The notes beneath the pieces are model-generated. The model did not search any database, had not been told where the DNA came from, and saw only the letters and a list, made by a program, of their open reading frames with translations. The position numbers and the translations under genes are program-made. This document shows, piece after piece, positions 24,141-39,160 of a stretch of 64,000 nucleotides of DNA (positions are counted from its first letter, which is position 1; each line of letters opens with the position of its first letter). Origin of the DNA: Candidatus Fermentibacterota bacterium (GTDB taxonomy: Bacteria; JAFGKV01); the NCBI GenBank assembly GCA_016928395.1, contig JAFGKV010000147.1, forward strand, positions 1 through 64,000, given 5' to 3'.

Positions 24141-24292
24141 CCGGCCGTTCGGGGATGTGGCGCAGACGACGGCGCACCGATACCTTGTAGGGTTTGCGCT
24201 TTCCATGGGACTTCCGGATGAGAAGGGAACCAGAAGCTGCATACATCACATGAGCAATGCCCCAGTCGGCTCGCTCATTCAGGAGTAGAGGC

Positions 24293-25606
24293 GTGAAGCT
24301 CTCCCAAGAGACCATGAGTAAGGCGACGGTAACTGTCACTGAGCCGTCACCGTCGCAACGGGTGCTGGAGGTTTCGCTGTCGGCCGACGAAGCGCAGAGA
24401 CTGCGCGGCGTATACCTCAGAGGCCTGACCAAAGACATGACACTGCCAGGGTTCCGAAAGGGGAAGGTTCCCTTCCATCTGGTGCAGGCCCAGCTTGGAG
24501 AGTCTGCCGAACAAGGTTTGGTGCTGGAGCTGGGCAAGGCATTTCTGGATCGCTACGCACACGACCAGCACTTCCCGGTGGTTCGGACGCCGCACGTGAC
24601 ATCACCCATCGCCTCTGACGGAGGCCTCAAACTGAGGATTGAGGTGGATGTGGTTCCACCTTTCGAGCTTCCTCCCTACAAGGCTCTCCCCGCGAGGCTG
24701 CAGCGTCGAACCGTGACGGAAGCTGATGTGGAGGAGTTTCTTCGCCAGCGAACCGAGCAGCTATCGACCTTGCTTCCCAAGAAGGAGCCATTGTCATTGG
24801 GAGATGCGGCGCGACTTCGTGTGCAACGGGTCGCTCCCGGTGGGATTCCTCTGGTTGGCGAGCCTGTCAGGGAGGTCATGATCCGGCTCGATCTCAACGA
24901 AGCGCCGCCGGAATTGGTGAATGGCCTGGTGGGGCTGATGAAGGATGCTACCACCCGTATCACCCTCCCCCGCGAGGGAAGTGGATTGGTGAAGGCTCCC
25001 AAAGGGGCCGACGAAGGCAGTCTCTATGCGATCACTGTGGTGGATGCCTTGACCGTGGAGCCTCCGGAGCCGGCACGCGTGGCGCAGGAGTTCGGCATTG
25101 ACGATCCGGAGGAACTCCCCATTAGGGTCCGGGTACTGCTCGAAGACGAGATGGACAGGCATGCCCGTGCAGCGATGCGCGGCGAACTGGTAGCCAGGAT
25201 CGCGCGCAACGCGAGCCTGCATCTGCCGTTAGCCATGGTGGACGAACATATTGAAGACATACGCACATCCCTTGTCGAGACTGCCCACCGCCAGGGCAAG
25301 GAACCTGACTCCGATCTTCTGGACCCGCAGTTCTTTGCGGAGCGGCACCGAGATCAGATACGACACGGCATGAAGGAACTCCTGATCGTTGACGCGATCG
25401 CCACCACGGAAGGGCTTCTCCCGACTCATGAGCAGATCCAGGCAGCTATCGGGGCCCAGGCTCATGCCAGAGGGCTCAGTGCCAAGCAGGCGGTCAAACA
25501 GATGGATGACGAGGATCTCCAAGCCTTGATCCGTCGGATCACACGAGTCAACGTTGAGCGGTTCCTTGAGGACGAGGCCGAGGTGGAACTAGCCGAAATG
25601 AGCTGA
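24293..25606 (+). CDS. tig: trigger factor (ribosome-bound chaperone, peptidyl-prolyl isomerase)
   Basis: The product has 437 residues, normal for the family. GTG 24293 is chosen because AGGAG (24280-24284) is 8 bases upstream; ATG 24314 would also serve. The ribosome-docking signature appears as '[20 protein letters not shown]' near residue 43. The middle FKBP-like domain (about 150-235) is diverged and may be weakly active or inactive. The C-terminal chaperone arms contain '[20 protein letters not shown]'. It stands first in the tig-clpP-clpX-lon-engB run, the common order in bacteria. Confidence 0.93.
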
Positions 25607-25617
25607 GGGACTTACTG

Positions 25618-26220
25618 ATGACATACATACCGTTTGTGGTTGAGCAGACAGGCAGGATAGAGCGAACCTACGACATCTACTCGAGGCTCCTGAAGGACAG
25701 GATCATCTTCATCGGGACGCCCGTAGATGACCAGATCGCCAATCTGGTCATCGCACAACTTCTTTTTCTTCAGGCAGAAGACCCCCACGTCGACATATCG
25801 CTCTACATCAACACGCCCGGTGGCGTCGTGACCTCGGGCCTAGCCATCTATGATACCATGCAGTACATCAAACCGGATATCGCCACCGTCTGTCTGGGCC
25901 AGGCCGCCAGTCTGGGTGCGCTGCTTCTCGCTGCAGGGACCGTGGGAAAGCGCTCGGCCCTGCCAAACTCCCGCATCATGATCCACCAACCGTTGGGGGG
26001 CATCTCCGGTCAGGCGGTTGACATCGCCATTCATGCCCGCGAAATTGTGCGGATGAAGCAGAGTCTGAATCAGATACTGGCAACCCACACCGGTCAGCCG
26101 GTATCGAGAATCGAGCGCGACAGTGACCGCAACTTCTTCATGTCCGCGCACGAGGCAAAGGAATACGGCATCATTGATACGGTGATGGCGTTGCCCGTCA
26201 AGGAACACTCGCAAGGGTAG
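25618..26220 (+). CDS. clpP: ATP-dependent Clp protease proteolytic subunit with Asn in place of catalytic Asp
   Basis: The product has 200 residues. Nucleophile Ser98 ('[16 protein letters not shown]') and His123 ('[10 protein letters not shown]') are present. The third triad residue should be the Asp of 'RDTxRDxF'; here the sequence is '[12 protein letters not shown]', so position 172 is Asn (codon AAC, 26131-26133). The rest of the protein is a normal ClpP, with the hydrophobic N-terminal loop '[20 protein letters not shown]'. It forms tetradecamers capped by ClpX, encoded 5 bases downstream. Asn at this place is known in Listeria ClpP1, which works in mixed rings with another ClpP; a second clpP is not in this window. 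Confidence 0.95.
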
Positions 26221-26225
26221 TCGCA

Positions 26226-27479
26226 ATGACTCGTCGCACCAATCCGCCGGGATCGAGACTGCTGCGCTGCTCGTTCTGCGGGCGAGATCAGTCCGAGGTG
26301 GACAAGCTCATCTCGGGGCCTTCCGTCTATATCTGCAATGAGTGCGTCTCGCTCTGCAACGAGATTCTCTCCGAGGAGGCCGGCCGGGACGTACAGCACG
26401 CCAAGCCTACATTGCCTAAGCCGCGCGAGATCAACTCGGAACTGAACGCCTTTGTCATTGGTCAGGAGCGCGCCAAGAAGACATTGGCCGTGGCTGTGTA
26501 CAACCACTACAAGCGTATCCGGAACAAGAAGCTCCGTGACAATGTTGAGATCGAGAAGAGCAACATCATGCTCCTCGGTCCTACCGGGACGGGTAAGACG
26601 CTTCTCGCCGAGACCCTGGCACGGATTCTCGATGTGCCCTTCGCCATCGCCGACGCCACCACCCTTACCGAGGCGGGCTACGTTGGCGAAGATGTGGAGA
26701 GCATCATCTCCAAGCTGCTGCAGAATGCCGATTTCGACATCGGTCAGGCTGAGAAGGGCATCATCTATATCGACGAAATCGACAAGATCGCCCGTAAGGC
26801 TGATAACCCATCCATCACCCGCGATGTGTCCGGCGAGGGAGTGCAGCAGGCATTGCTGAAGCTGGTGGAGGGGACAGTGGCGAATGTCCCGCCCCGGGGC
26901 GGACGGAAGCATCCACAGCAGGAGTTCATCGAGGTCAATACCCGGAACATTCTCTTCATTGCCGGCGGTGCCTTCGACGGCTTGGAGAAGATCATAGAAC
27001 GGCGAGGCGGCGGAAAGGTGGTGGGATTCGGTGCGGCGGTTCACGATGCCTCTGACGGCTCCATTGGCCGCCTTCTGGACAAGGTCGAGCCACGGGATCT
27101 CCTCAAATTCGGCATGATTCCCGAGTTGGTGGGCCGCTTCCCTGTGGTGGCTCCTCTGCACGAACTGACACAGGATGCCCTGGTGGAGATACTGACCGAG
27201 CCCAAGAATTCGCTGGTTCGTCAGTACAAGAAGCTCTTCGAGATGGAAGGCATCACGCTTCACTTCCACGACGATGCCCTCTCGGCCGTCGCGGCCGAGG
27301 CGATCCGGCGGGGAAGCGGCGCGCGCAGCCTCCGGGCAATCATGGAAGAACTGATGCTTGACTTGATGTACGACATCCCTTCCCGGTCGGACATCAGCGA
27401 GGTTGCGATCACCGCCGATTTCGTGCACAGGAAGGCTGCTCCTCTGTTTGTGATGGCAGAGGAGAAGAAGGCCTCCTGA
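26226..27479 (+). CDS. clpX: ATP-dependent Clp protease ATP-binding subunit ClpX
   Basis: The product has 417 residues. The N-terminal zinc-binding domain has four Cys ('[10 protein letters not shown]', '[11 protein letters not shown]'). Walker A is '[20 protein letters not shown]' (~117), Walker B '[16 protein letters not shown]' (~181), the pore loop lies in '[10 protein letters not shown]' (~157), and sensor 2 in '[15 protein letters not shown]'. The ClpP-docking loop reads 'VGFG' (~266) where many ClpX have IGFG. It unfolds tagged substrates and feeds ClpP. Gene order and 5-base spacing from clpP indicate one operon. Confidence 0.96.
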
Positions 27480-27496
27480 GCGTCGCAGCAGGCATC

Positions 27497-29902
27497 ATGA
27501 CCCCGATCGAATCACTACTCAGACTGTATCGCGACACCGGCGTCATCGACATTCGGTCACGCCTCCCGATACTCCCCATTCGAGACCTCATCATGCATCC
27601 GTACATGATGACGACGCTTCTGGTTGGTCGGGACCGATCGCTGGCTGCCCTGGAGCGGGCAGTGAACGACGACAAGCTTCTTTTCCTCGTTGCCCAGAAG
27701 CACCCCGAGGTGTTGGACCCGCAGAGCAAGGACTTGTACAGGGTCGGCTGCGTGGCGGCAGTGCTGCAGCTTCTCCGCCTGCCCGACGGTACGGCCAAGA
27801 TCATGGTGGAGGGCTTGGGGCGGGCGGAGGTCAAGCGCTACGTGATCCGCGGCGATCTCAGGGACGCTGTGCTCGCCCGCGGCGAACCGGAGCCGCCGGC
27901 CATATCTCCCGAACTGGAGGCCATGCTCAGGACGGTCAAGGCCAGCTTCGGCGAATATGTCTCGTTGCATCGGCGGTTGCCCGATGATTTGCTGGCATCG
28001 GTGCAGGACATCACCAGCCCGTCGAGGCTTGTGCATGTGGTTTCCGCTCACCTCCTGGTGGCCAATGAGACGAAACAGGCGCTCCTGGAAGAATTCGACC
28101 TGATGTCCCACTTGACCCTTCTGGCCCATGTACTTGCCCAGGAGTTGGATATCCTTCGGCTGGAGCGCAAGATTGAAGATGAGGTCCGCGGCCAGGTGCA
28201 GAAGAACCAGCGGGATTTCTACCTGAACGAGCAGCTTCGCGCGATACAGCGAGAGCTGGGTCATGAGGAAGAAGGTACCGACGAGCTGGGAGAGCTGGAG
28301 GCGGCCATCAAAGGCGCCTCCATGCCCGCCAAGGTTAAGGAGAAGGCCGAGCAGGAATTGGCCCGGCTGAAGCGGCTACCGCCCATGACGCCCGAAACCG
28401 GCATCGTGCGTCAGTACCTTGATTGGCTGGTAGGTCTCCCCTGGGAGGCTCGGACGGAGGATCAGCTGGATATCGGGGAGGCTGAGCGGATCCTCGATGA
28501 AGATCACTACGGCTTGACCAAGGTCAAGGAACGCATCCTCGAGTATCTGGCGGTGCTGAAGCTGGTGAAGCGCCTGAAAGGTCCGATACTGTGTCTCGTC
28601 GGCCCGCCCGGCGTGGGAAAAACCTCCTTAGGTAAGTCCATCGCCCGGGCACTAAACAGAAAGTTCGTACGGATCAGCCTGGGCGGCGTGCGCGATGAGG
28701 CCGAGATCCGAGGCCACCGGAGGACCTATGTCGGCGCACTCCCGGGGCGTATCATCCAATCCATCCGAAAGGCTGGCACGCGGAATCCGGTCTTTCTGCT
28801 GGACGAGGTAGACAAGATGAGCGTGGATTTCCGGGGGGATCCCTCCGCGGCGCTCCTGGAGGTGCTGGATCCCGAGCAGAACGACACCTTCAGCGATCAC
28901 TATCTCGAAGTAGAGTTCGATCTATCCGAGGTGATGTTCATCACCACGGCAAACATCACCCACGCCATACCACCCGCGCTGAGGGACCGGATGGAGATCA
29001 TTCGGATGCCGGGCTATCTGCGCCATGAGAAGCTGGGCATTGCCGAGCAGTTCCTCATTCCCAAGCTGAGAGCATCCCATGGGCTTAACGGCCAGCAGCT
29101 TCAGTTCGAGCGAAGCGCCCTCAATGCAATCATCGGGCGATATACGCGGGAGGCCGGCGTGCGGGATCTTGAGCGCAGCCTCGCCAGCATTTGCAGAAAG
29201 GCATCGAGGCGCATCGCCAAGGACCCCGGCTCGGGCTGTATCGTCCTCACGCCCAGAAGGGTCCAAATGTTTTTGGGTGCTCCACCCTATCGCGAATCGG
29301 AATTGGATGAGCAGGTTGGGGTCGGTTCGGCCACCGGATTGGCGTGGACGGAATTCGGCGGGGAGATTTTGACCATCGAGGCTATCGTGACGCCGGGTAA
29401 GGGGGAGGTGCTTTTCACCGGTCAACTGGGCGACGTCATGAAGGAATCGGCCAGGGCGGGATTGACCTATATGCGCAGCAGGGCCGAAGCCCTGGGGTTG
29501 GATCCCAAATTCCACCTGAATTACGATATTCACGTGCACATTCCGGAAGGTGCCATCCCCAAAGATGGGCCATCTGCAGGTATTGCCATGGCTTCAGCCA
29601 TGATCTCCGCCCTCACGGGAAGGCCGGTGAAGCGCACGGTGGCCATGACCGGCGAGATCACGTTGCGGGGCAGGGTCTTACCCGTCGGAGGTCTGCCGGA
29701 GAAGACCGTGGCGGCCCAACGGGGCGGCGTCAAGGAGATCGTGCTGCCCGCGGAGAATACCCGGGAACTCAAGGAGATCCCTCGGCAGGCGAAGCGGGGC
29801 CTTGTCTTCCATCAGGTGCGGTCCATGGATGAGGTACTGGCTTTGGCTTTCGTGGAGAATCCACTCAGGCTTTCGCGGCCTACCGGCACCGAAGCCCCAT
29901 AG
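27497..29902 (+). CDS. lon: ATP-dependent Lon protease
   Basis: The product has 801 residues, the LonA size. Residues ~15-205 are the LAN substrate-binding domain ('[20 protein letters not shown]'), followed by a coiled linker ('[20 protein letters not shown]'). The AAA domain has '[20 protein letters not shown]' (~370) and '[12 protein letters not shown]' (~430). The protease domain has the Ser of '[16 protein letters not shown]' (~690) and the Lys of '[17 protein letters not shown]' (~734). It degrades misfolded and regulatory proteins in the cytoplasm. It lies 17 bases after clpX, in the same direction. Confidence 0.96.
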
Positions 29903-29960
29903 GAAATGCCCCACACGGCGGACTCCAGGTTGATGGGCCGGATTCGCCGGGAGTGAGCCG

Positions 29961-30563
29961 ATGCCCACCCTTCCCGTGCAACTGGAGTCCTGCGCCAGCC
30001 TGGCCCAGCTTCCCAAGCCGTTTCATCCCGAGATTGCGTTTGCCGGGCGCTCCAATGTCGGCAAATCATCCCTTATCAATGCCATTACTGGAGTGCGGAT
30101 TGCCCCTGTGAGCCGAACGCCCGGTAAGACGCGCACCCTCCGTCTCTATCTCTGGCATCCGCCCAAGGGTGCCGCCATATGCCTGGTGGATCTGCCGGGC
30201 TATGGGTGGGCCAACTTGCCCGGGCATGTCCTTGCGCGATGGCATCCGTTGGTTGAGGGCTACCTTGCGGGTCGCCCGACACTCCGCGCCGTGGTGCTGG
30301 TTGCCGACCTGAGGCGGGGCAGCACGGTGCTGGACCATGACATGGCGGTCTGGCTGCGTGGGCAGGGCATGCCGTACCTGGTGGTCGCCGCAAAGGCCGA
30401 CAAGATCTCCCGGAGCAAGCGAGCGACGCTCCTCGACGCGATTGCCACGGCGACGGCAGTGTCCGCCGAAGACATCATTGAGTTTTCCACGGTTACCAGG
30501 GAGGGGTATCGAGCAGTGCACGCAGCCGTGGCGGCGTTGGCCACGGGCGCTGTCTCGCGGTAG
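29961..30563 (+). CDS. engB: ribosome-biogenesis GTPase EngB/YsxC/YihA
   Basis: The product has 200 residues. GTPase motifs: G1 'FAGRSNVGKSSLINAI' (~29), G2 'SRTPGKTRTL' (~49), G3 'LVDLPGYGWANL' (~74), G4 'VAAKADKISRSKR' (~142; Ala where most have Thr in TKAD). Family members bind the large ribosomal subunit during its assembly. It is last in the lon run, 58 bases after lon. Confidence 0.93.
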   Translation: MPTLPVQLESCASLAQLPKPFHPEIAFAGRSNVGKSSLINAITGVRIAPVSRTPGKTRTLRLYLWHPPKGAAICLVDLPGYGWANLPGHVLARWHPLVEGYLAGRPTLRAVVLVADLRRGSTVLDHDMAVWLRGQGMPYLVVAAKADKISRSKRATLLDAIATATAVSAEDIIEFSTVTREGYRAVHAAVAALATGAVSR

Positions 30564-30910: not shown

Positions 30911-32680
30911 TCAGCGGAAGCGGTGCTTCAGGTAGGCGAACTGAGCCTCCAGTTCGGCGCGGTCCGCCGTGGCGTAGCGTGGGGGCAGATAGCGTCGATC
31001 CGAGGTGGCCAGCACTGCCGCCAGCTCCTGCAGGGCAAGAAGCTGGGGATCCAGGGGATCGATGAAGGAATCTACCGCGTCTTGAAGATCCTCGACATGC
31101 ACATCATCATCTCGTTGGGCAAGCACGGCCCGCTCCCTGGCACGATTGATGATTGACTCCACATCGCTGCCGGTCAGGGGCAGTGCGCCCAAGGTTGCGC
31201 GCACATAGGCCTGGACCTCGTCCGAGAGATCGACTTTGCGGCTCTTGGCGATGACCGAGAAGAGCTCCCCGACGTCGTCGGGATTCTGTGCCGGAAACAG
31301 CGGCATGCACAGCCCAAATCTGCCCTGACGCTTCATGTCGATGGAGAGCAAGTCAGGCCTCGAGGTCATGGCAACCCAAAGCTCTCTGCCCCGAAGGCTG
31401 GAGTCGCCGATATGCGCGGCGAAGGCCGCAAACACCCTGCTGGATACGCCGCTGTCGCCATCGGAGACCCGGCTGCCGAACACGGCGTCGGCTTCATCCA
31501 CTACGACGACTACCGGCCCCAGGGCCCGGATGGTCATGAGGATGCGAGCCTGCTGGCGTTCAGTGTCGCCAACCCACTTGGAGCGGAACTCGCCGATCTC
31601 CATGACGGGCAGCCCGCACTCGCTGGCGAAGCAATCGATGAGGAAGGACTTTCCCACCCCCACACGGCCCGGCACGAGCAGACCCCGCTCCAGCACGGAG
31701 GTCTTGCCGTTCTTGATCAGCCAGGCTAGCTCTCGAAGCCGTTTCTTGGCTGCCTCGTGGGTCGCCACATTATCCAGGCTGACGCCCGGCTTGGGGTCCT
31801 TGAACCGCACAAGACCCTGGCAATACTCCTCGATGAGCCGCTTCTTGCCTGAGGCGATGTGTTCCGCCGTGAGCCGCTGGCCATTGCGAACCGCCTCTGC
31901 CACAAGATGTTTCGTGCGGAGAAGGTTGAGCCCTGCGGTACGGTGCGCAAGGTCTGCCGGGGGGATATCGCTCCATCCCTCCAAACCCCGCTCTCCGGAT
32001 ATTTCCTTCACCCAATCGGCGCTCAGGAATCGCCGTCGTTCACTTTCCCCGGGAAGATCTATGCGGACCTGAGCGACGTGGGGATGCTGGAGGATGTCGC
32101 TGTGTAACTCGGCCGCTGATTCGGTAACCAAAAGAACACAAACGTCAAGCCGTCGCATCTCCGAGGATGCGGCCCACTTGAGCAGCGTGACCAGGGCCAT
32201 CCTCTCATCGAGGCTCGCGCCGCTTTCCTCCGTGGCAGGGATGATCTTCTCGGGAAAGTCAATGATAAGGGTGATGCCTCGCGTATTGGTTCCGTCAGCG
32301 GCGGCCAGGAAGAATCGCCTGAGCAAAGGCGCCAGGCGGGTGAACTCCCGGGGCGGCCCAAGGCTCCGGTATGACGTGCCCTCGACCCGGTCGTAGACTT
32401 CGATCCACTCGAAGAACCGTTGCTGCATGTCGGCGGAGCCGAAGGTCAGGCCATCACCAATGTCGTAGAAGAGGAGGACCGAGCGCTCTGGAAAGAGCCT
32501 CTGGGAGAGAAACCCTTTGAGCGGCACATAGGTCACCTGGCCATCCACGGTGACAGGGAATACGTCGAAGATATTGCCGTGCAGGACGAAGACGGTGTAC
32601 GATTCGCTGTTCCATCGACGGGCCAGCGCCAAAGCCCATCCATCCAGCGGCAGTCGTTCGCCGAGGTTGCGTTCGTTCAT
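30911..32680 (-). CDS. classical AAA ATPase with Vps4-like pore loop, linked to PspA
   Basis: The product has 589 residues. Residues ~1-285 look like a degenerate AAA domain: 'FVLHGNIFDVF' replaces Walker A, and 'GITLIIDFPEKI' takes the place of Walker B. Residues ~300-560 are an intact classical AAA module: Walker A 'GRVGVGKS' (338-345), pore loop 'SKWVGDTERQ' (367-376), Walker B 'VVVVDEADAVFG' (391-402), second region of homology 'TSRPDLLSIDMKRQGRF' with two Arg (451, 454) as possible fingers. 'SKWVG' is characteristic of the Vps4/katanin/spastin group. The start overlaps the coiled-coil gene's stop codon by 4 bases. It is last in the PspA operon, and a role in remodelling PspA filaments is inferred from this. 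Confidence 0.85.
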   Translation of the reverse strand: MNERNLGERLPLDGWALALARRWNSESYTVFVLHGNIFDVFPVTVDGQVTYVPLKGFLSQRLFPERSVLLFYDIGDGLTFGSADMQQRFFEWIEVYDRVEGTSYRSLGPPREFTRLAPLLRRFFLAAADGTNTRGITLIIDFPEKIIPATEESGASLDERMALVTLLKWAASSEMRRLDVCVLLVTESAAELHSDILQHPHVAQVRIDLPGESERRRFLSADWVKEISGERGLEGWSDIPPADLAHRTAGLNLLRTKHLVAEAVRNGQRLTAEHIASGKKRLIEEYCQGLVRFKDPKPGVSLDNVATHEAAKKRLRELAWLIKNGKTSVLERGLLVPGRVGVGKSFLIDCFASECGLPVMEIGEFRSKWVGDTERQQARILMTIRALGPVVVVVDEADAVFGSRVSDGDSGVSSRVFAAFAAHIGDSSLRGRELWVAMTSRPDLLSIDMKRQGRFGLCMPLFPAQNPDDVGELFSVIAKSRKVDLSDEVQAYVRATLGALPLTGSDVESIINRARERAVLAQRDDDVHVEDLQDAVDSFIDPLDPQLLALQELAAVLATSDRRYLPPRYATADRAELEAQFAYLKHRFR

Positions 32681-33594
32681 GCCCGTTGTTTTACCCTCCC
32701 GCGTCTCTCTCGCTCAGGTGTTGCCGCTTCGCCGAAGCCGATCCGCATATCCGGGGGCGGCAGATCGCCTACGACATCCTTGAACTCCGCCATCTGTGCC
32801 AGCCATCTGTTGGTCTGGTCAAGCTGCTCTACGCTGGCGTCGATCCGGGCGGTGAGCGCCTCCGTATTGCGCATGGCCATGGCGTCAGCCCGGATGAGCT
32901 TGATCTGCTGATGGAGGCGATCCTGTTCCGAGGCCACTAGCGCCAGGTTCTCCTTGGCCTCCTGCAGCCGTGCCATCCGTTTGTGAAGCACCGAGAGTCG
33001 GTCTGACCGGGAGCTATGAAGACGTTGCCTGGATTCCAGACTTTGAGGTGACCCGGTTGACGTGTCCGCCTCAATGTCTGCAGCGAGACGCTGAACTTCC
33101 TCTTCAGATTCCCGCACCATCCGGGGAAGGTCCTCCTTGCGTTCGCCTTCCAGGAAGACCTCCAGCGACTCCTGCATCCTAAGAAGCCGAAGATAGGTCC
33201 ACATAAGCTCCTCGAGTTTCCTCACCCTGGGACCATCGCTTCTGTCGTCCCCGTCTGCGCCGGCCTGATCTATCTCCCGGCATACGGCAGCCAGCTCATT
33301 GTAGCGGGTCCGCCCCGCATTCGTCAGCCTGGCCAGTTCCGCGTCTCGGCGGCGCACGAAGAGGATCATCTCCTGCAGAGCCTTCCTTCGTTCCTCCTTC
33401 TCCCGGCGGCGGTGGACCCATCGCTTGAAGAAAGGCATGTCAGGCAGGTAGATCCATCCCAGCGCATACCCTGTGACTCCCAGGATAAGGCCCAGTACCT
33501 CAGCCGAGAGCACACCCACGCCTACGGTAAGGATGGCTAGCCACAGGTGATGGGGGCTGTTCTTGAATTCCCGGCGGTAGTCTGGCTCGGGCAT
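32677..33594 (-). CDS. coiled-coil inner-membrane protein of the PspA operon
   Basis: The product has 305 residues from ATG 33594 (AAAGG upstream). Residues ~16-55 form one long or two short membrane segments ('LWLAILTVGVGVLSAEVLGL'). Most of the rest is charged and helical, with predicted coiled coils around 65-150, 170-195 and 205-275 ('ERRKALQEMILFVRRRDAEL', 'LHQQIKLIRADAMAMRNTEA'). No family was recognised. It lies 8 bases from the ABC ATPase gene and overlaps the AAA gene, so it is probably made together with both. A helical membrane adaptor between PspA and the AAA ATPase is one possibility. Confidence 0.75.
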   Translation of the reverse strand: MPEPDYRREFKNSPHHLWLAILTVGVGVLSAEVLGLILGVTGYALGWIYLPDMPFFKRWVHRRREKEERRKALQEMILFVRRRDAELARLTNAGRTRYNELAAVCREIDQAGADGDDRSDGPRVRKLEELMWTYLRLLRMQESLEVFLEGERKEDLPRMVRESEEEVQRLAADIEADTSTGSPQSLESRQRLHSSRSDRLSVLHKRMARLQEAKENLALVASEQDRLHQQIKLIRADAMAMRNTEALTARIDASVEQLDQTNRWLAQMAEFKDVVGDLPPPDMRIGFGEAATPERERRGRVKQRA

Positions 33595-33601
33595 GGGCCT
33601 T

Positions 33602-34492
33602 TCATCCTTCGAGTGCGGGGGCTGGGGAATCCCGCGAGGAACCGTTCGGGAGATCTTCCTCCAGTCTCTGCAACAGGTCATGGGTCATCTCGACAAACCA
33701 AGGGCGCTTGCGCATCACCTCTGGAGGCTCGTCGGGCCTCGGCGCCTCGACTTGCTCTACAAGCCTTCCGGGCCGGGCGCTCATCCGGTACACCCTGTCT
33801 CCCAGATACAGGGCCTCCTCCACCGAGTGGGTTACGAAAAAGACTGTTGCCTGTTGCTCTCGCCAGAGTTGTACCAGGAGTTCCTGCATGTGAAGTCTGA
33901 TCTTGGGATCCAAGGCCCCAAAGGGCTCGTCCATGAGGATGATGCGCGGGCACAGGATCAGGGTCGCTGCGATGGCGACTCGCTGCTGCATGCCGCCGGA
34001 GAGTTCGCCTGGGTATTTCCGCTCAGAGCCTTCAAGACCGATTCTCTGTATCCATCCCTTTGCCTGAGCATGACGGTCGGCCTTGGACACACCGCGGAGC
34101 ATGAGCCCGAAGGAGACATTGTCCAGCACCGTCAGGTGGGGGAGCAGAGAGTACTTCTGATCGACAACTCCACGGTCCGCACCCGGCCCGGTCACGGGCT
34201 TGCCGAACACCGTTACAGCACCGCTGGTGGGCGGGAAATGCGGCGGCAAACCTGCCAGAATGCGCAGCAACGTGGATTTCCCACATCCTGAAGGGCCGAC
34301 AATGGCGATGAGTTCACCCATGCCGGCAAGATCGTGCACCACGAATGAGACATCGGCGACGGCCACCTTGGCTGCCGGCCCTGTGCCGAATACCTTGCTC
34401 ACGCCGTGGAAGCGTACGATTTCTGCCGGAGCCACGTCGTCAGACGGCGGCGGTGGAGCAGGGGTTGCGGCATCGGCGACTTCGTCGGTCAC
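33602..34492 (-). CDS. ABC transporter ATPase, nitrate/sulfonate/taurine (SsuB/TauB) type
   Basis: The product has 296 residues. GTG 34492 overlaps the permease stop codon (GTGA, 34489-34492), which decides the start over the longer frame. Walker A 'VGPSGCGKSTLLRILAGLPP', Q-loop region 'GVVDQKYSLLPHLTVLDNV', signature 'LSGGMQQRVAIAATL', Walker B 'IILMDEPFGALDPKIR' and H-loop 'FFVTHSVEEALYL' are intact. An extended, Pro/Ala-rich N-terminus (~28 residues) precedes the nucleotide-binding fold. It powers the adjacent permease. Confidence 0.92.
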   Translation of the reverse strand: MTDEVADAATPAPPPPSDDVAPAEIVRFHGVSKVFGTGPAAKVAVADVSFVVHDLAGMGELIAIVGPSGCGKSTLLRILAGLPPHFPPTSGAVTVFGKPVTGPGADRGVVDQKYSLLPHLTVLDNVSFGLMLRGVSKADRHAQAKGWIQRIGLEGSERKYPGELSGGMQQRVAIAATLILCPRIILMDEPFGALDPKIRLHMQELLVQLWREQQATVFFVTHSVEEALYLGDRVYRMSARPGRLVEQVEAPRPDEPPEVMRKRPWFVEMTHDLLQRLEEDLPNGSSRDSPAPALEG

Positions 34493-35349
34493 GTGGCCCT
34501 CCGGTAGGGGAACAGGTTCTTCCCACCCCAACGCCAAGCACGATCGCATGCGATGGCGATGGCGACGATGACGATGATGATGGCGAAGATCGAAGAGGTG
34601 TGACCCCGGCGTTCAGACACGGAGATGAGGTAGCCCAGCCCCTGTTGCGCATTCACCACTTCGGCCAGGATGATCCATCCCCACCCTATGCCATATACCC
34701 CGCGGAGATGATCCCAGATATCGGCGGCGGCGACGGGGAAGAGCACGTGCCGCACCAGTTGCCAGTGGGTGGCGCCCTTGGTCCGCGCCACATCCAGGAA
34801 GGCTGGCACCACGTCAGACACTGACTTGATCACCAACGGCAACAAGGCCACGAAACACGCAATGAACAAAAACCCGATCTTCTGCGTCTCGGAGGCGCCC
34901 CACCACGCCAGAGTCAAGGGGATGAACACGATGATGGGCACATAGGCGCTGGCGAGACTCAAGGGTCGGAAAAAAGAAGCCACGGGGGGGAATGCCGCCA
35001 TACACACTCCCAGTGGCACGGCCACCATGGCGGCCAGCGAAAAGCCAATCGTGACCCGGACGAACGAGGTCAGCGCGCTGCGCACCAAGGCCTGCTCGAA
35101 ATGGAGTTTGGGGAACGCCTGCAGCACTTCGAAGGGATTGGGTAGGATAAGGGGCGCGATCATGCGATCCTCGATCCTCTCGCCCCGCGTCGCCACCCAC
35201 CACAGCAGGAGCAGCACTGCCACGAAACCCCAGGTCAGCGCCAGGCTGACGCCATGGGACACATCCTTTCGCACGGCCAGGCCCGTGTACCGTGCCACAC
35301 ACAGGAGCGCTGCCACCAGAACGGCGGCAAACAGCAGAAACCCCAGCAT
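34489..35349 (-). CDS. ABC transporter permease, SsuC/TauC type
   Basis: The product has 286 residues with about seven membrane segments, the first two forming an N-terminal extension to the usual core. The cytoplasmic coupling (EAA) loop is 'DVARTKGATHWQLVRHVLFP', followed by 'GWGWIILAEVVNAQQGLGYL', typical of nitrate/sulfonate/taurine permeases. It overlaps the neighbouring genes by 4 bases on both sides (ATGA at 35347-35350 region, GTGA at 34489-34492). One permease gene implies a homodimer. The substrate is unknown. Confidence 0.9.
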   Translation of the reverse strand: MLGFLLFAAVLVAALLCVARYTGLAVRKDVSHGVSLALTWGFVAVLLLLWWVATRGERIEDRMIAPLILPNPFEVLQAFPKLHFEQALVRSALTSFVRVTIGFSLAAMVAVPLGVCMAAFPPVASFFRPLSLASAYVPIIVFIPLTLAWWGASETQKIGFLFIACFVALLPLVIKSVSDVVPAFLDVARTKGATHWQLVRHVLFPVAAADIWDHLRGVYGIGWGWIILAEVVNAQQGLGYLISVSERRGHTSSIFAIIIVIVAIAIACDRAWRWGGKNLFPYRRAT

Positions 35350-37043
35350 CAGTCGCTCTCGAGCGGATACACCTTCACTTCAACGCGGCGGTTGCGGCGA
35401 TTGTGCTCGGGGTCGCTGGAATTGGTCATCCCGGGTACGGGATTGTCCCACCCATTGCCGATCACCCGGAACTTGTTCGGGTCGAACTTGTAGCGGGCCA
35501 TGATCTCCTTGCGCACGGCGTCAGCCCGGTCATAGGACAGTTGCCTGACCAAGTCCGCGGGCACAATCCCTCTGCGGCTGGCATCAGTGTTGCCTTCGAT
35601 CACGACATAGGCATTGCCGAACTTGCCCGCCAGTTCGCCGATTTCGGCAAGTACCTTGGGGATACTCGGATCATACACTGGATTCAGAGCCGCCCTGTTC
35701 GGTTCGAAGGTGATGATGACGGCCTTGGTGAGAATCTCGCCCGCTTCAGCCTCGGCCGTCTTGAAGAAGGTGGTGGAGCGGAAGGTGGGTTGGGAGAGAT
35801 CGGCGACATCTTTGTACTCCTCAGCCATGCCGGCCAGGATCGACGACGCCTTGACCTTGGCCGGAGCCACCGGAGTCTGGATGGCGCCCAAGGACTGGTA
35901 GATGGTCGAGGCGCGGTTCCATACCACCTCGAAGTTGGCGGGATTCATGGGATCGAGGAAGAAGTTGGCATTTTCTCGGTAGTTGGTGAGATGCGCATCA
36001 CCAGTGGTGATACCGCCATCGCTGCCGATCATGGCCTCGCACTCGTCCGCAGGGATATTGAAAGCCGCCGCCAGTTGTTGCGCCGCGGTGGGTACGTCGC
36101 TGCGCACCCGGTCCATACCCTCGAAGATGCCCCGTATCAGGTTCGCCACGATGTCTGGATGGTCGCGGAAGAAGTCATTACGGACGGCCCAGACATCGGC
36201 GATCAGGTGATTGGCGCTGGCCGTGGTCACGATGAGACGGGTACCAGCCAGCTGCTCCGACACGGTATAGATGTCGGGCGCCCAGCCGACAAAGGCATCA
36301 AAGCTGTCGTCCTGCACGAAGATCTTAGCCGCCGCAGGGGCATCGCCCGCCCAGCGGAAGTCAACCTCGGCCGGGTCGATACCGGCATCGACCAGCAGCG
36401 ACATAATGAAGAAGTGGCTAGGGGAGTTCTGCGCCAGTACCACTTTGCGTTTCTTGCCGGCCTGCATCCTCAGGTCATTGATGGATCGGATATCGCCCCG
36501 GGCAACGATGCCGTCACCGCCGCTGGACCAGTCGATCTGCTGACACACGATGGGCACCGTGCGGGAGTCCTTTATCAGCTCCGGAGCGAATAGTGCGATC
36601 ATGTCCAGAGTGCCCCATAGGATGTGGCTGTGACCGGTGGCGAACAGATCGCGAGCCTTCACCGGATCGTCCACGATGGAGAGTTCCACATAGAAACCGT
36701 ATTTCTGGTAGAAGAGGCTGGCGTCGTTGGGAGCGAGCCCATTGTTGGCAACGATAATCGGTGCCCAACCTGGCCAGATGTTGATCGGGAATCTCACCAC
36801 CATCTTGCCATCACGCATCGGCTTCGCATAGTCGCTCACGCCGGCGACGGGAGGGATTGCGCTCTCACCGATGAGCGATACCGCCTTGTCGCCGGCAAGG
36901 AGTCTCTGCGTGATATCGGAAGCCTTCAGCGACGGTATCGTTGGGGCACCGGTCGGGGCGATCTTGTCCCACCAGCGCCACACACCGAAGATCACGGCCG
37001 CGAGAAGAAGGAAGGTCAGGGCAAACTTGCCACGTCCGGTCAT
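35349..37043 (-). CDS. membrane-anchored ABC substrate-binding protein fused to an OmpA domain
   Basis: The product has 564 residues. Residues ~7-23 ('FALTFLLLAAVIFGVWRWW') look like an uncleaved membrane anchor. Residues ~80-400 are a TauA/SsuA/NMT1-like binding fold ('INIWPGWAPIIVANNGL', 'ATGHSHILWGTLDMIALFAP', 'FVGWAPDIYTVSEQLAGT'). Residues ~443-564 are an OmpA C-terminal domain: 'IEGNTDASRRG' (Asp ~487), 'LSYDRADAVRKEIMARYKFD', 'VIGNGWDNPVPG', 'RRNRRVEVKVYP' (Arg ~552). The two residues that grip diaminopimelate in OmpA are thus present. It should tie the binding domain to the inner membrane and to peptidoglycan. It overlaps the permease and follows PspA by 36 bases. Confidence 0.9.
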   Translation of the reverse strand: MTGRGKFALTFLLLAAVIFGVWRWWDKIAPTGAPTIPSLKASDITQRLLAGDKAVSLIGESAIPPVAGVSDYAKPMRDGKMVVRFPINIWPGWAPIIVANNGLAPNDASLFYQKYGFYVELSIVDDPVKARDLFATGHSHILWGTLDMIALFAPELIKDSRTVPIVCQQIDWSSGGDGIVARGDIRSINDLRMQAGKKRKVVLAQNSPSHFFIMSLLVDAGIDPAEVDFRWAGDAPAAAKIFVQDDSFDAFVGWAPDIYTVSEQLAGTRLIVTTASANHLIADVWAVRNDFFRDHPDIVANLIRGIFEGMDRVRSDVPTAAQQLAAAFNIPADECEAMIGSDGGITTGDAHLTNYRENANFFLDPMNPANFEVVWNRASTIYQSLGAIQTPVAPAKVKASSILAGMAEEYKDVADLSQPTFRSTTFFKTAEAEAGEILTKAVIITFEPNRAALNPVYDPSIPKVLAEIGELAGKFGNAYVVIEGNTDASRRGIVPADLVRQLSYDRADAVRKEIMARYKFDPNKFRVIGNGWDNPVPGMTNSSDPEHNRRNRRVEVKVYPLESD

Positions 37044-37079: not shown

Positions 37080-37841
37080 CTACTCCGCTATCTTCTGACG
37101 CGTCTCCGGTTGCTCTGGCTGCGCGGCAGTCGTCGCTGCCTCGGGCTGGACCAACCCCGCCTTCTTTCGATATTCCTCGAATAGCATGGCGCCTCGGGCT
37201 CTCCGGGTCTCCTGCTGTTGCTTCACGTTCGAGCCCATCTCCTTGGCGAGATCCAAGGTGGCCCTGATCTGCCCCTCTCCCGAAGCAGCGGACTGGCGAA
37301 GCCTCTGCATGGATTCGCCCATCTCACCCCCCATCATCCCTTGCAGCTCGCCCACGGAGCTCTTCATGAGGCTGGCCAGATTCTCCAGCGATCGTCCCAC
37401 CGCAACCCTGGCTTTCACGTGCTCGAACTCCATCTGAAACTTCTGTACCTCGCGGATGCTCTGGGCGATGATCTGTGTGTTCTGTTTGTACAAATCCTCG
37501 AGATTCTGACGCTGGGCTTCGTTCTCGCGGATCTCCTCCTCGAGATTGGCCAGCGTCTCGGCGTAATGGGCTCCGTTTTCGACGTCGTTGACGTTGGCGG
37601 CCGCCGCAAGCAGGCCCTGCAGCTCCTGACGCTGCCGTTCCTGCCGCTTCACCTGGTCTTTGAGCAAGGCAACCTGCCCGGCGAGTTGCCCGTTGGCATA
37701 GTGGGCCTTGTCGGCCTTGGTGCGAGCGTCGCGAATGCCGCGTTCGATCACCGCCTGGTTGATGGCATCGGTCTCTGTTGCCTTGTCAGCCATCAGGCCC
37801 AGGAAGATGAACACGCGTTTGATGGCGCGAAACAGACCCAT
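37080..37841 (-). CDS. pspA: PspA/IM30 family membrane-remodelling protein
   Basis: The product has 253 residues. It begins 'MGLFRAIKRVFIFLG' (an amphipathic helix) and is nearly all coiled coil from ~25 to ~215, rich in Gln, Glu and Arg ('QIIAQSIREVQKFQMEFEHV'). A disordered Pro/Gln tail ends the chain. This is the PspA/IM30 (Vipp1) layout, though diverged. Members are now grouped with ESCRT-III and form membrane-binding rods or rings. It sits second in the operon, 10 bases after the vWA gene. A PspA relation is by layout and sequence pattern; a generic coiled-coil protein cannot be fully excluded. Confidence 0.78.
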   Translation of the reverse strand: MGLFRAIKRVFIFLGLMADKATETDAINQAVIERGIRDARTKADKAHYANGQLAGQVALLKDQVKRQERQRQELQGLLAAAANVNDVENGAHYAETLANLEEEIRENEAQRQNLEDLYKQNTQIIAQSIREVQKFQMEFEHVKARVAVGRSLENLASLMKSSVGELQGMMGGEMGESMQRLRQSAASGEGQIRATLDLAKEMGSNVKQQQETRRARGAMLFEEYRKKAGLVQPEAATTAAQPEQPETRQKIAE

Positions 37842-37851
37842 GGTCTCCTCC

Positions 37852-38595
37852 TTACTGGGTGTGGAATGAATCGGGCTGCGCCGGCTCCTCTGATTCCAGC
37901 AGGATCTTCTGCTCCATTATGAAAGAAAGCTGATCACTGAGCTGGATTTCGTCGGCCGCAGCAACCACCGTCACATCATGTTGCCGGAGCTCATCAAAGA
38001 GGGCCGCGGCGATGTCAAACGCAATAAAATGAACACCGATGGCGGTAGCCAGCGCTTCGGCCCGCGATTGAATCTGTGGAATCACGGCCTTGGGATCGGG
38101 ACCTGTCGTGTTCATCCCATCGGTGATGACCAGAATGTGATTCCGGGACAAGGGCGAGGCGAGCACCTGTTGCGCCGCCATCTCCAGGGATCTGCCCAAG
38201 GGCGTCGAACCGCGGGGCGTGACCCCGGCGTGGAGCCAGCTCCTCAGGGCAGCCGCGTCGAATGGGCCGAAGGGAACGGCCTCGGCGGCCCCTCCCGATC
38301 GAAACACCACGAGACCGGACCGAACCTGCCGGGGATGGGACGAGCCGGGCCGCGCGTACTCCTCCACGCGGGCCACCACAGAGGCCAAGGCCCTGGCTCC
38401 GATGACGTGCTTCGGGCTGCGTCCCCCTGCGGCGTCGAGCACGGCATCGTCCATGCTGCCGGAGGTGTCGAACACAACGACAAGGTCCAAACCCTCATCG
38501 CTCTGGGGAGGATAAGAATCACCGCATGCCAGTATGACCGAGAGGCCAAGGGTCAAGGGAAGAAGAGCTCTCACGGGTAGGCGGTTCATACTCAC
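37852..38595 (-). CDS. von Willebrand factor A domain lipoprotein
   Basis: The product has ~247 residues. GTG 38595 lies seven bases after AAGGAG; ATG 38589 is also possible. A lipoprotein signal with lipobox 'VILAC' precedes the vWA domain. The metal-site (MIDAS) motif 'VVVFDTSGSMDDAV' is complete, with later Thr in 'VTPRGSTPLGRSLE' and Asp in 'ILVITDGMNTT'. It probably sits in the periplasm on a membrane and binds a partner through Mg2+ or Mn2+. It is the first gene of the seven-gene PspA operon. Confidence 0.88.
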   Translation of the reverse strand: MSMNRLPVRALLPLTLGLSVILACGDSYPPQSDEGLDLVVVFDTSGSMDDAVLDAAGGRSPKHVIGARALASVVARVEEYARPGSSHPRQVRSGLVVFRSGGAAEAVPFGPFDAAALRSWLHAGVTPRGSTPLGRSLEMAAQQVLASPLSRNHILVITDGMNTTGPDPKAVIPQIQSRAEALATAIGVHFIAFDIAAALFDELRQHDVTVVAAADEIQLSDQLSFIMEQKILLESEEPAQPDSFHTQ

Positions 38596-39160
38596 GACCA
38601 CGCTCCTTGCGGCACGTCCCTTTGGGGAAGGGCCGCCACACCTTTCCGTACTTCTGCGCGTAGCGTCCGGTGCGCGCCCAGCGGCTCATCGGCCGCCGAC
38701 ACGCATGGGCTCAACATCTAGAACAAGCTATCGGCAGCGGATGACAGGGTCAAGCCAGCCGTCGCTGCCGCACGGGTCATGGTACCTTCCATTCCGCCGC
38801 GGTATTCACAGGGGCACTTCCGTGGCGGATACACTCGGAGCGAACACCGCCACCACGGGCCGCACTCGCCTCAATCGCCTGGCGTACTTCGTCGCCATCA
38901 CATCGCCAGACTTTGATACGCGATGGTGCAGTTCGGGGCCGTTGGGTCACATCACGATCTTGCGCGGGCTTCATCAACAGCCTCCTTGGTCCGAAGCTCG
39001 CGGGCTCTTGCTTGGCGATATGCGACCCCGCTACATTGTGATGGTCTCAAGATGCTCCGGCGCGACTGCGTACGGGTGTGCATCTTCGCGTTCCCGCCTT
39101 GCCGGCCGTGAAATGGGGATGCCTCTCTTGGGCGCCGACGGCCGAGGAAGAGGATACCTC
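38596..39160. other. 565-base divergent region between the PspA operon and the glycosyltransferase gene
   Basis: A long open frame runs through it in phase with the glycosyltransferase, but it has no family similarity and the transferase has a normal start at 39161. Promoters for both directions must lie here; one minus-strand candidate is listed. No RNA gene was recognised. Confidence 0.55.
38725..38753 (-). promoter_or_regulatory. candidate promoter for the PspA operon
   Basis: On the minus strand TTGACC (38753-38748), 17-base spacer, TAGCTT (38730-38725). Start of transcription would be near 38718, leaving a leader of about 120 bases before the vWA gene. The -35 is good, the -10 weak. Confidence 0.4.

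Follow-up and report, generated by a model that had tools for sequence, protein, structure and literature searches.

A PspA-linked tandem AAA protein as a candidate motor for a bacterial ESCRT-III coat

The recycling and remodelling of ESCRT-III polymers by the AAA ATPase Vps4, known in archaea as CdvC, is established for eukaryotes and archaea. PspA, a membrane-bending protein of bacteria, belongs to the ESCRT-III superfamily and is encoded, together with an AAA protein, in the stretch of DNA studied here (64,000 nucleotides of a Candidatus Fermentibacterota contig, hereafter the window). The locus raises the question of whether this AAA protein is the motor of a PspA coat and whether it descends from Vps4. 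A review describes bacteria as having no clear Vps4 homologue (PMC7615534), and structural work on PspA leaves its disassembly open (PMC11746142).

The AAA gene belongs to a seven-gene operon on the minus strand, in the order VWA lipoprotein, PspA, substrate-binding/OmpA protein (SBP-OmpA), permease, ABC ATPase, membrane coiled-coil protein (TMCC) and AAA; neighbouring genes overlap or are separated by short gaps (Table 1). The start codon of AAA and the stop codon of the gene before it share the sequence ATGA, and engB, which follows downstream, is convergent, which agrees with a preliminary description of the window that had placed the AAA gene at the operon end. The convergent neighbours at positions 24257–30563 look like tig-clpP-clpX-lon-engB; the AAA operon ends against this proteostasis cluster. 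A pairing of the MoxR-VWA type was considered and dropped, because the VWA protein carries a lipoprotein-like signal and should therefore be periplasmic, where it could not meet a cytosolic AAA protein. The GC-content of the locus gave no sign of recent transfer; the two nearest genomes compared (G001 and G002) lack a full-length AAA ortholog, which suggests transfer or loss. The association of PspA and AAA in one operon has already been reported: Ravi et al. 2024 (PMC11237479) described an operon type exemplified by OGG56892.1 and proposed Vps4-like membrane remodelling for it. As presented there, it combines PspA, a protein of two AAA copies with an inactive N-terminal one, an ABC ATPase, a permease, a PBPB + OmpA protein and a transmembrane partner, and the window fits this description closely.

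Table 1. Features of the AAA operon (positions in the window).
Feature	Position	Strand	Basis
AAA protein, tandem AAA (N-terminal inactive + C-terminal active module), 589 aa	30911..32680	-	ORF, PF00004, AlphaFold, Foldseek, 79 related loci
N-terminal half, residues 1-290, predicted degenerate AAA fold, D1 position, without Walker A	31811..32680	-	Foldseek, motif count, Ycf46-like profile match
Walker A GRVGVGKS, residues 338-345	31646..31669	-	42-member alignment
Pore loop 1 RSKWVG, residues 366-371	31568..31585	-	42-member alignment
Walker B VVVVVDE, residues 390-396	31493..31513	-	42-member alignment
Second region of homology (SRH), Arg451 + Arg454, sensor-1 Asn -> Ser	31316..31378	-	42-member alignment
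Membrane hairpin + long coiled-coil protein (TMCC)	32677..33594	-	Alignment of 38, structure model, hydropathy
ABC transporter ATPase, taurine/sulfonate/nitrate type	33602..34549	-	PF00005; nearest NCBIfam = taurine ATP-binding subunit, below cut-off
ABC permease	34489..35349	-	PF00528; SaoP/TauC-like
Substrate-binding domain + C-terminal OmpA peptidoglycan-binding domain, N-terminal hydrophobic anchor	35349..37043	-	PF00691, SsuA-family match, hydropathy
Divergent PspA (ESCRT-III superfamily)	37080..37841	-	PF04012 in relatives; canonical PspA in distant branch
PspA C-terminal peptide RQKIAE, proposed AAA-engagement tail	37083..37100	-	Column conservation
VWA-domain protein, lipoprotein-like signal, first operon gene	37852..38601	-	PF00092; gene order kept in related loci

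The AAA reading frame is a real gene, stop-free over its whole length. Residues 335–456 match the Pfam AAA family (PF00004) at E 4.5e-19, over the curated cut-off, and an AAA_lid_3 match was found in 25 of 42 family members. In the alignment of these 42 proteins, Walker A (GxxGxGK[ST]) is preserved in 41 and the DE of Walker B in all; the pore-loop tryptophan, Trp369 (S-K/Q-W-V/Q-G), is present in 41, Arg451 of the SRH in 42 and Arg454 in 41. Such retention in 41–42 relatives indicates that the Walker motifs, the pore tryptophan and the SRH arginines are under selection. The preliminary description had read SKWVG at the pore-loop position and two arginines in the second region of homology, and the alignment bears out both. 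It had also called this second region classical and the Walker motifs intact. The Walker motifs and the SRH arginine fingers do place the module in the classical AAA family; what the description overlooked is that 41 of 42 members have Ser, Cys or Ala where classical AAA proteins have the sensor-1 asparagine (N of 'ATN'), with the preceding threonine retained. The rate of ATP hydrolysis is uncertain for this reason.

The whole protein was modelled with AlphaFold2 from the alignment of 42 sequences, with a mean pLDDT of 90 and a pTM of 0.86. The model aligns over about 560–640 columns with tandem-AAA proteins in Foldseek (E 1e-18 to 1e-20, with TM scores of at most 0.58 when normalised by query length), the top match being p97 D1D2 (E 1.4e-20, 578 columns), followed by Cdc48, Rix7, NVL and Afg2. 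Since the predicted model matches tandem AAA proteins from end to end, its N-terminal half can be read as an AAA domain occupying the place of D1, devoid of nucleotide-binding motifs: a GxxxxGK[ST] P-loop was sought in the first 280 residues and found in none of the 42 members. The suggestion that this half (residues 1–285) is a second AAA domain without Walker A is thus confirmed at the level of the predicted structure. The proteins p97/Cdc48, Rix7 and NVL are the best full-length structural matches, and VCP/Cdc48 gives the best PDB sequence matches, including those of the active module. Unlike them, the window protein has a dead N-terminal AAA domain, no Cdc48 N domain was found in it, and its family forms a tree clade of its own.

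The ancestry of the active module was studied in a maximum-likelihood tree comprising the family, Vps4, katanin, spastin, Msp1, both Cdc48 domains (D1 and D2), FtsH and a Ycf46-like set; PAN and MoxR were not included. The family forms its own clade with 100/100 support and a long stem, outside the clade of Vps4, katanin, spastin and Msp1 (99/98). In AU tests, constraining it with Vps4, katanin and spastin was weakly rejected (p 0.036), and the value rose to 0.055 when Msp1 was added; a constraint with Cdc48 D2 was rejected at p 0.039. A grouping with FtsH, proteasome or MoxR-type ATPases, against which the preliminary description had set its reading, is not seen for FtsH, which does not group with the family in the tree, although the corresponding constraint was not rejected (p 0.16). 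Curated profiles score the protein highest with CDC48 (65 bits), then PAN (49), FtsH (39.5) and CdvC/Vps4 (33).

These data bear on the possibility that the protein is a true member of the Vps4/katanin (meiotic) clade acquired by bacteria. It does share with Vps4/CdvC a tryptophan pore loop and a genetic tie to an ESCRT-III homologue with a conserved C-terminal peptide, and it has the SKWVG motif and the arginine pair. The motif is not diagnostic of Vps4 and katanin, because the D2 domain of an archaeal VCP-like ATPase carries SKWVGESE at the same place. The tandem AAA layout and the separate clade are foreign to Vps4, no MIT or Vps4_C match occurs among the Pfam matches listed for the window protein or family members, and the CdvC profile ranks below those of CDC48, PAN and FtsH. 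Tree, AU test and domain content together disfavour such descent, and we regard it as very improbable; as a statement of kinship, the "Vps4/katanin-style" label of the preliminary description falls.

The best-supported neighbour of the family is the Ycf46-like set (98/93), with long branches on both sides that make long-branch attraction possible. This set comprises loci L127, L129, L132, L135 and L136, which we take to belong to the cyanobacterial/plastid Ycf46 family; cyanobacterial plasmid homologues are 46–48% identical to L132. Full-length profile comparison joins the two groups over 443 columns at E 4e-30, and the N-terminal halves alone match at E 7e-5. Both groups have a degenerate N-terminal half followed by an active AAA module, and in both a GD[SG]GTSSR[VI]F-like segment follows Walker B. 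They differ in the pore loop, which has no tryptophan in the Ycf46 type (FAGLVGESES in L132), and form separate supported clades. In layout, profile and tree, these sequence comparisons point to the Ycf46-type tandem AAA proteins as the probable nearest relatives of the family. Several further relatives were noted. Loci L121 and L122 of one genome (G041) are distant (23–27%) with the same N-half plus AAA layout, and in one of them Walker A is degenerate. Bacillota plasmids (H13–H16; Paenibacillus, Brevibacillus) also encode related ATP-binding proteins. A 425-aa AAA protein (L131, genome G018) has the pore loop SKWVGETQ, and its nearest model, far under the cut-off, is the anti-phage ATPase IteA.

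Searching 85,000 species genomes yielded 79 related AAA loci. Close loci (63–79% identity) come mostly from Verrucomicrobia and from some Planctomycetes MAGs, where the order VWA-PspA-SBP/OmpA-permease-ABC-TMCC-AAA is kept; a distant branch of about 37% identity is found in Myxococcota. Among the 40 close-clade loci with enough upstream sequence, TMCC precedes the AAA gene in 34, PspA in 27, SBP-OmpA in 26 and the ABC ATPase in 19. In the distant branch, PspA (PF04012, E 1e-18 to 1e-20) lies in the AAA operon or directly adjoins the AAA gene. In the Myxococcota operon (L112, L107, L118, L119), another ABC ATPase and a PEGA-domain Ser/Thr kinase are added immediately before AAA; in L119 (genome G055), AAA is preceded by a kinase-TPR-GAF-sigma54 activator fusion.

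The presence of permease, ABC ATPase and SBP-OmpA in the full operons, and a link to transport suggested by Ravi et al. (PMC11237479), would suit an AAA protein that serves the linked ABC importer specifically, as its assembly chaperone or its regulator, with uptake controlled by the membrane state and PspA as the sensor. Seven loci of Opitutaceae and Planctomycetes (L076, L077, L082, L084, L088, L089 and L091) argue against it, as they keep PspA, TMCC and AAA and lack both the permease and its cognate ABC ATPase; their SBP-OmpA is a distant paralog (26–29%). The transporter therefore looks optional. The ABC ATPase of the Myxococcota operon is, moreover, a different one, and we consider the importer role improbable.

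The PspA of the window is divergent: its match to PF04012 (E 0.004) is below the cut-off, whereas 17 of 19 relatives match, the best at E 2e-6. A profile search of PDB with the PspA alignment gave no match, and in the window's genome no PspA above the Pfam threshold was found besides the divergent one of the operon. In 13 of the 40 close-clade loci PspA is not linked to AAA; G064, the sole such genome checked, encodes it elsewhere. In the phylum of G060, 388 genomes were compared, and exactly the same five of them contain the close AAA clade, its PspA subfamily and the close form of TMCC. Three of the five are fully independent; the draw was centred on G060, and G061 was known beforehand. In the phylum of G030, 146 genomes were compared: 74 possess both AAA and PspA, 8 only AAA, 2 only PspA and 62 neither (Fisher p 1e-29, uncorrected for the relatedness of genomes that share descent). 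The eight AAA-only genomes have a more divergent PspA, and in six of them it shares a contig with AAA. In 74 of 92 AAA-positive genomes the distance between PspA and AAA is no more than 20 kb; several of the exceptions come from fragmented assemblies, in which the two genes fall on separate contigs. Tailed PspA occurs with no AAA detected in G586 and G587, and in G055 the sole PspA accompanying AAA is a canonical one that lacks the tail and lies on a different contig. AAA and PspA are thus kept together, which makes the AAA protein a good candidate for the motor, so far missing, that dismantles PspA coats.

A second possible substrate is TMCC. Its reading frame extends to position 33681, with a likely start at 33594 (MPEPDYRREF). 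The model (pLDDT 86) contains helices at residues 43–59 and 62–81, followed by a long helical hairpin; positive residues follow the second transmembrane helix, so the C-terminal coiled coil should be cytoplasmic and could anchor the motor. The transmembrane partner is named a Snf7 homologue by Ravi et al. (PMC11237479). For the window protein this attribution is unsupported: no match to PspA or Snf7 was obtained by Pfam, hhalign or Foldseek, and the best Foldseek hit in PDB has an E-value of 0.06, with coiled-coil and BAR folds first and Vipp1 at about 0.4. The long helical hairpin is still compatible with it. In many close-clade TMCC proteins the C-terminus consists of a Pro-rich linker followed by basic V[KR]QR-like residues, which bear a loose resemblance to the RQKIAE of PspA.

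The direct substrate of AAA might accordingly be TMCC, assembled, extracted or reset by it, with PspA as a parallel envelope partner. In 34 of 40 loci TMCC is the gene just before AAA, more than the 27 of 40 that have PspA upstream; it overlaps the AAA start in the window, and it too ends in a linker and a VKQR/VRQR-like sequence. PspA is nevertheless linked to AAA with no intervening TMCC match in L092, L098 and G277, and TMCC was matched in 10 of 388 genomes as against 19 with AAA. Its C-terminus is also less uniform than the PspA tail. TMCC as the direct substrate seems unlikely on this evidence.

PspA proteins of the AAA systems share a low-conservation, disordered-looking Ala/Pro-rich linker that leads to a conserved C-terminal peptide. 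In the window branch, the columns of RQKIAE are 79–100% conserved versus 32–68% in the linker; in Myxococcota and Planctomycetota the tail is EKTIGKK or EKTIGPAE, and further relatives end in KALGPE, KNLGPA or KDLGPA (KxLGP). Canonical PspAs, including paralogs from the same genomes (G463, G464, G473, G484, G488 and G495), end near LxxLKxxL or otherwise. A strict tail motif was found in 38 of 48 dereplicated AAA-system PspAs, in none of 21 canonical PspAs and in 2.3% of shuffled tails. Seven of the ten that do not pass are close variants (RQKIPE, RQKITE, RQKIGE, KDAIGP, TTLGP and, twice, GTMGP), and the other three are canonical paralogs placed in the AAA-system set by the script. Since the motif was defined on the very sequences counted, from genomes related by descent, the contrast with the canonical set weighs more than the count. 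One genome (G063) encodes, in addition to the PspA of its operon, a second paralog (L183) whose tail, KDAIGPAES, resembles the other branch. PspA filament tails, put forward as a substrate in the preliminary description, are a plausible one, and co-occurrence, linkage and tail motif strengthen the case.

We propose that the tandem AAA protein is probably the motor of a bacterial ESCRT-III (PspA) coat and extracts subunits by their tail. PspA would polymerise along the cytoplasmic membrane, on its inner face. The N-terminal AAA domain, being inactive, most likely serves as a ring scaffold, a receptor for the tail or both, and the active C-terminal module would form a hexamer in which the tryptophan pore loop grips the C-terminal peptide of PspA (RQKIAE; EKTIGKK or KxLGP in other branches). 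ATP hydrolysis would thread or pull the subunits out, disassembling the coat for recycling. TMCC, encoded next to AAA, probably anchors or nucleates coat and motor at the membrane. In some lineages, an ABC importer whose receptor is bound to peptidoglycan may stand next to coat and motor. By analogy, the AAA protein is most likely a functional counterpart of Vps4 and not a member of its family. A narrower version, which we hold tentatively, is that a dedicated ESCRT-III motor arose from Ycf46-like tandem AAA proteins independently of Vps4 and reads the C-terminal peptide of its own PspA, as a convergent counterpart of the Vps4-MIM pair.

Compared with the passages of Ravi et al. (PMC11237479) considered here, the tail peptide, the co-inheritance test and the Ycf46 kinship appear to be new, with priority uncertain. 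With a co-inherited motor and a short conserved tail, the question of PspA disassembly becomes a simple experiment on six residues of PspA. If the proposal is true, ESCRT-III polymers would have acquired AAA recyclers at least twice.
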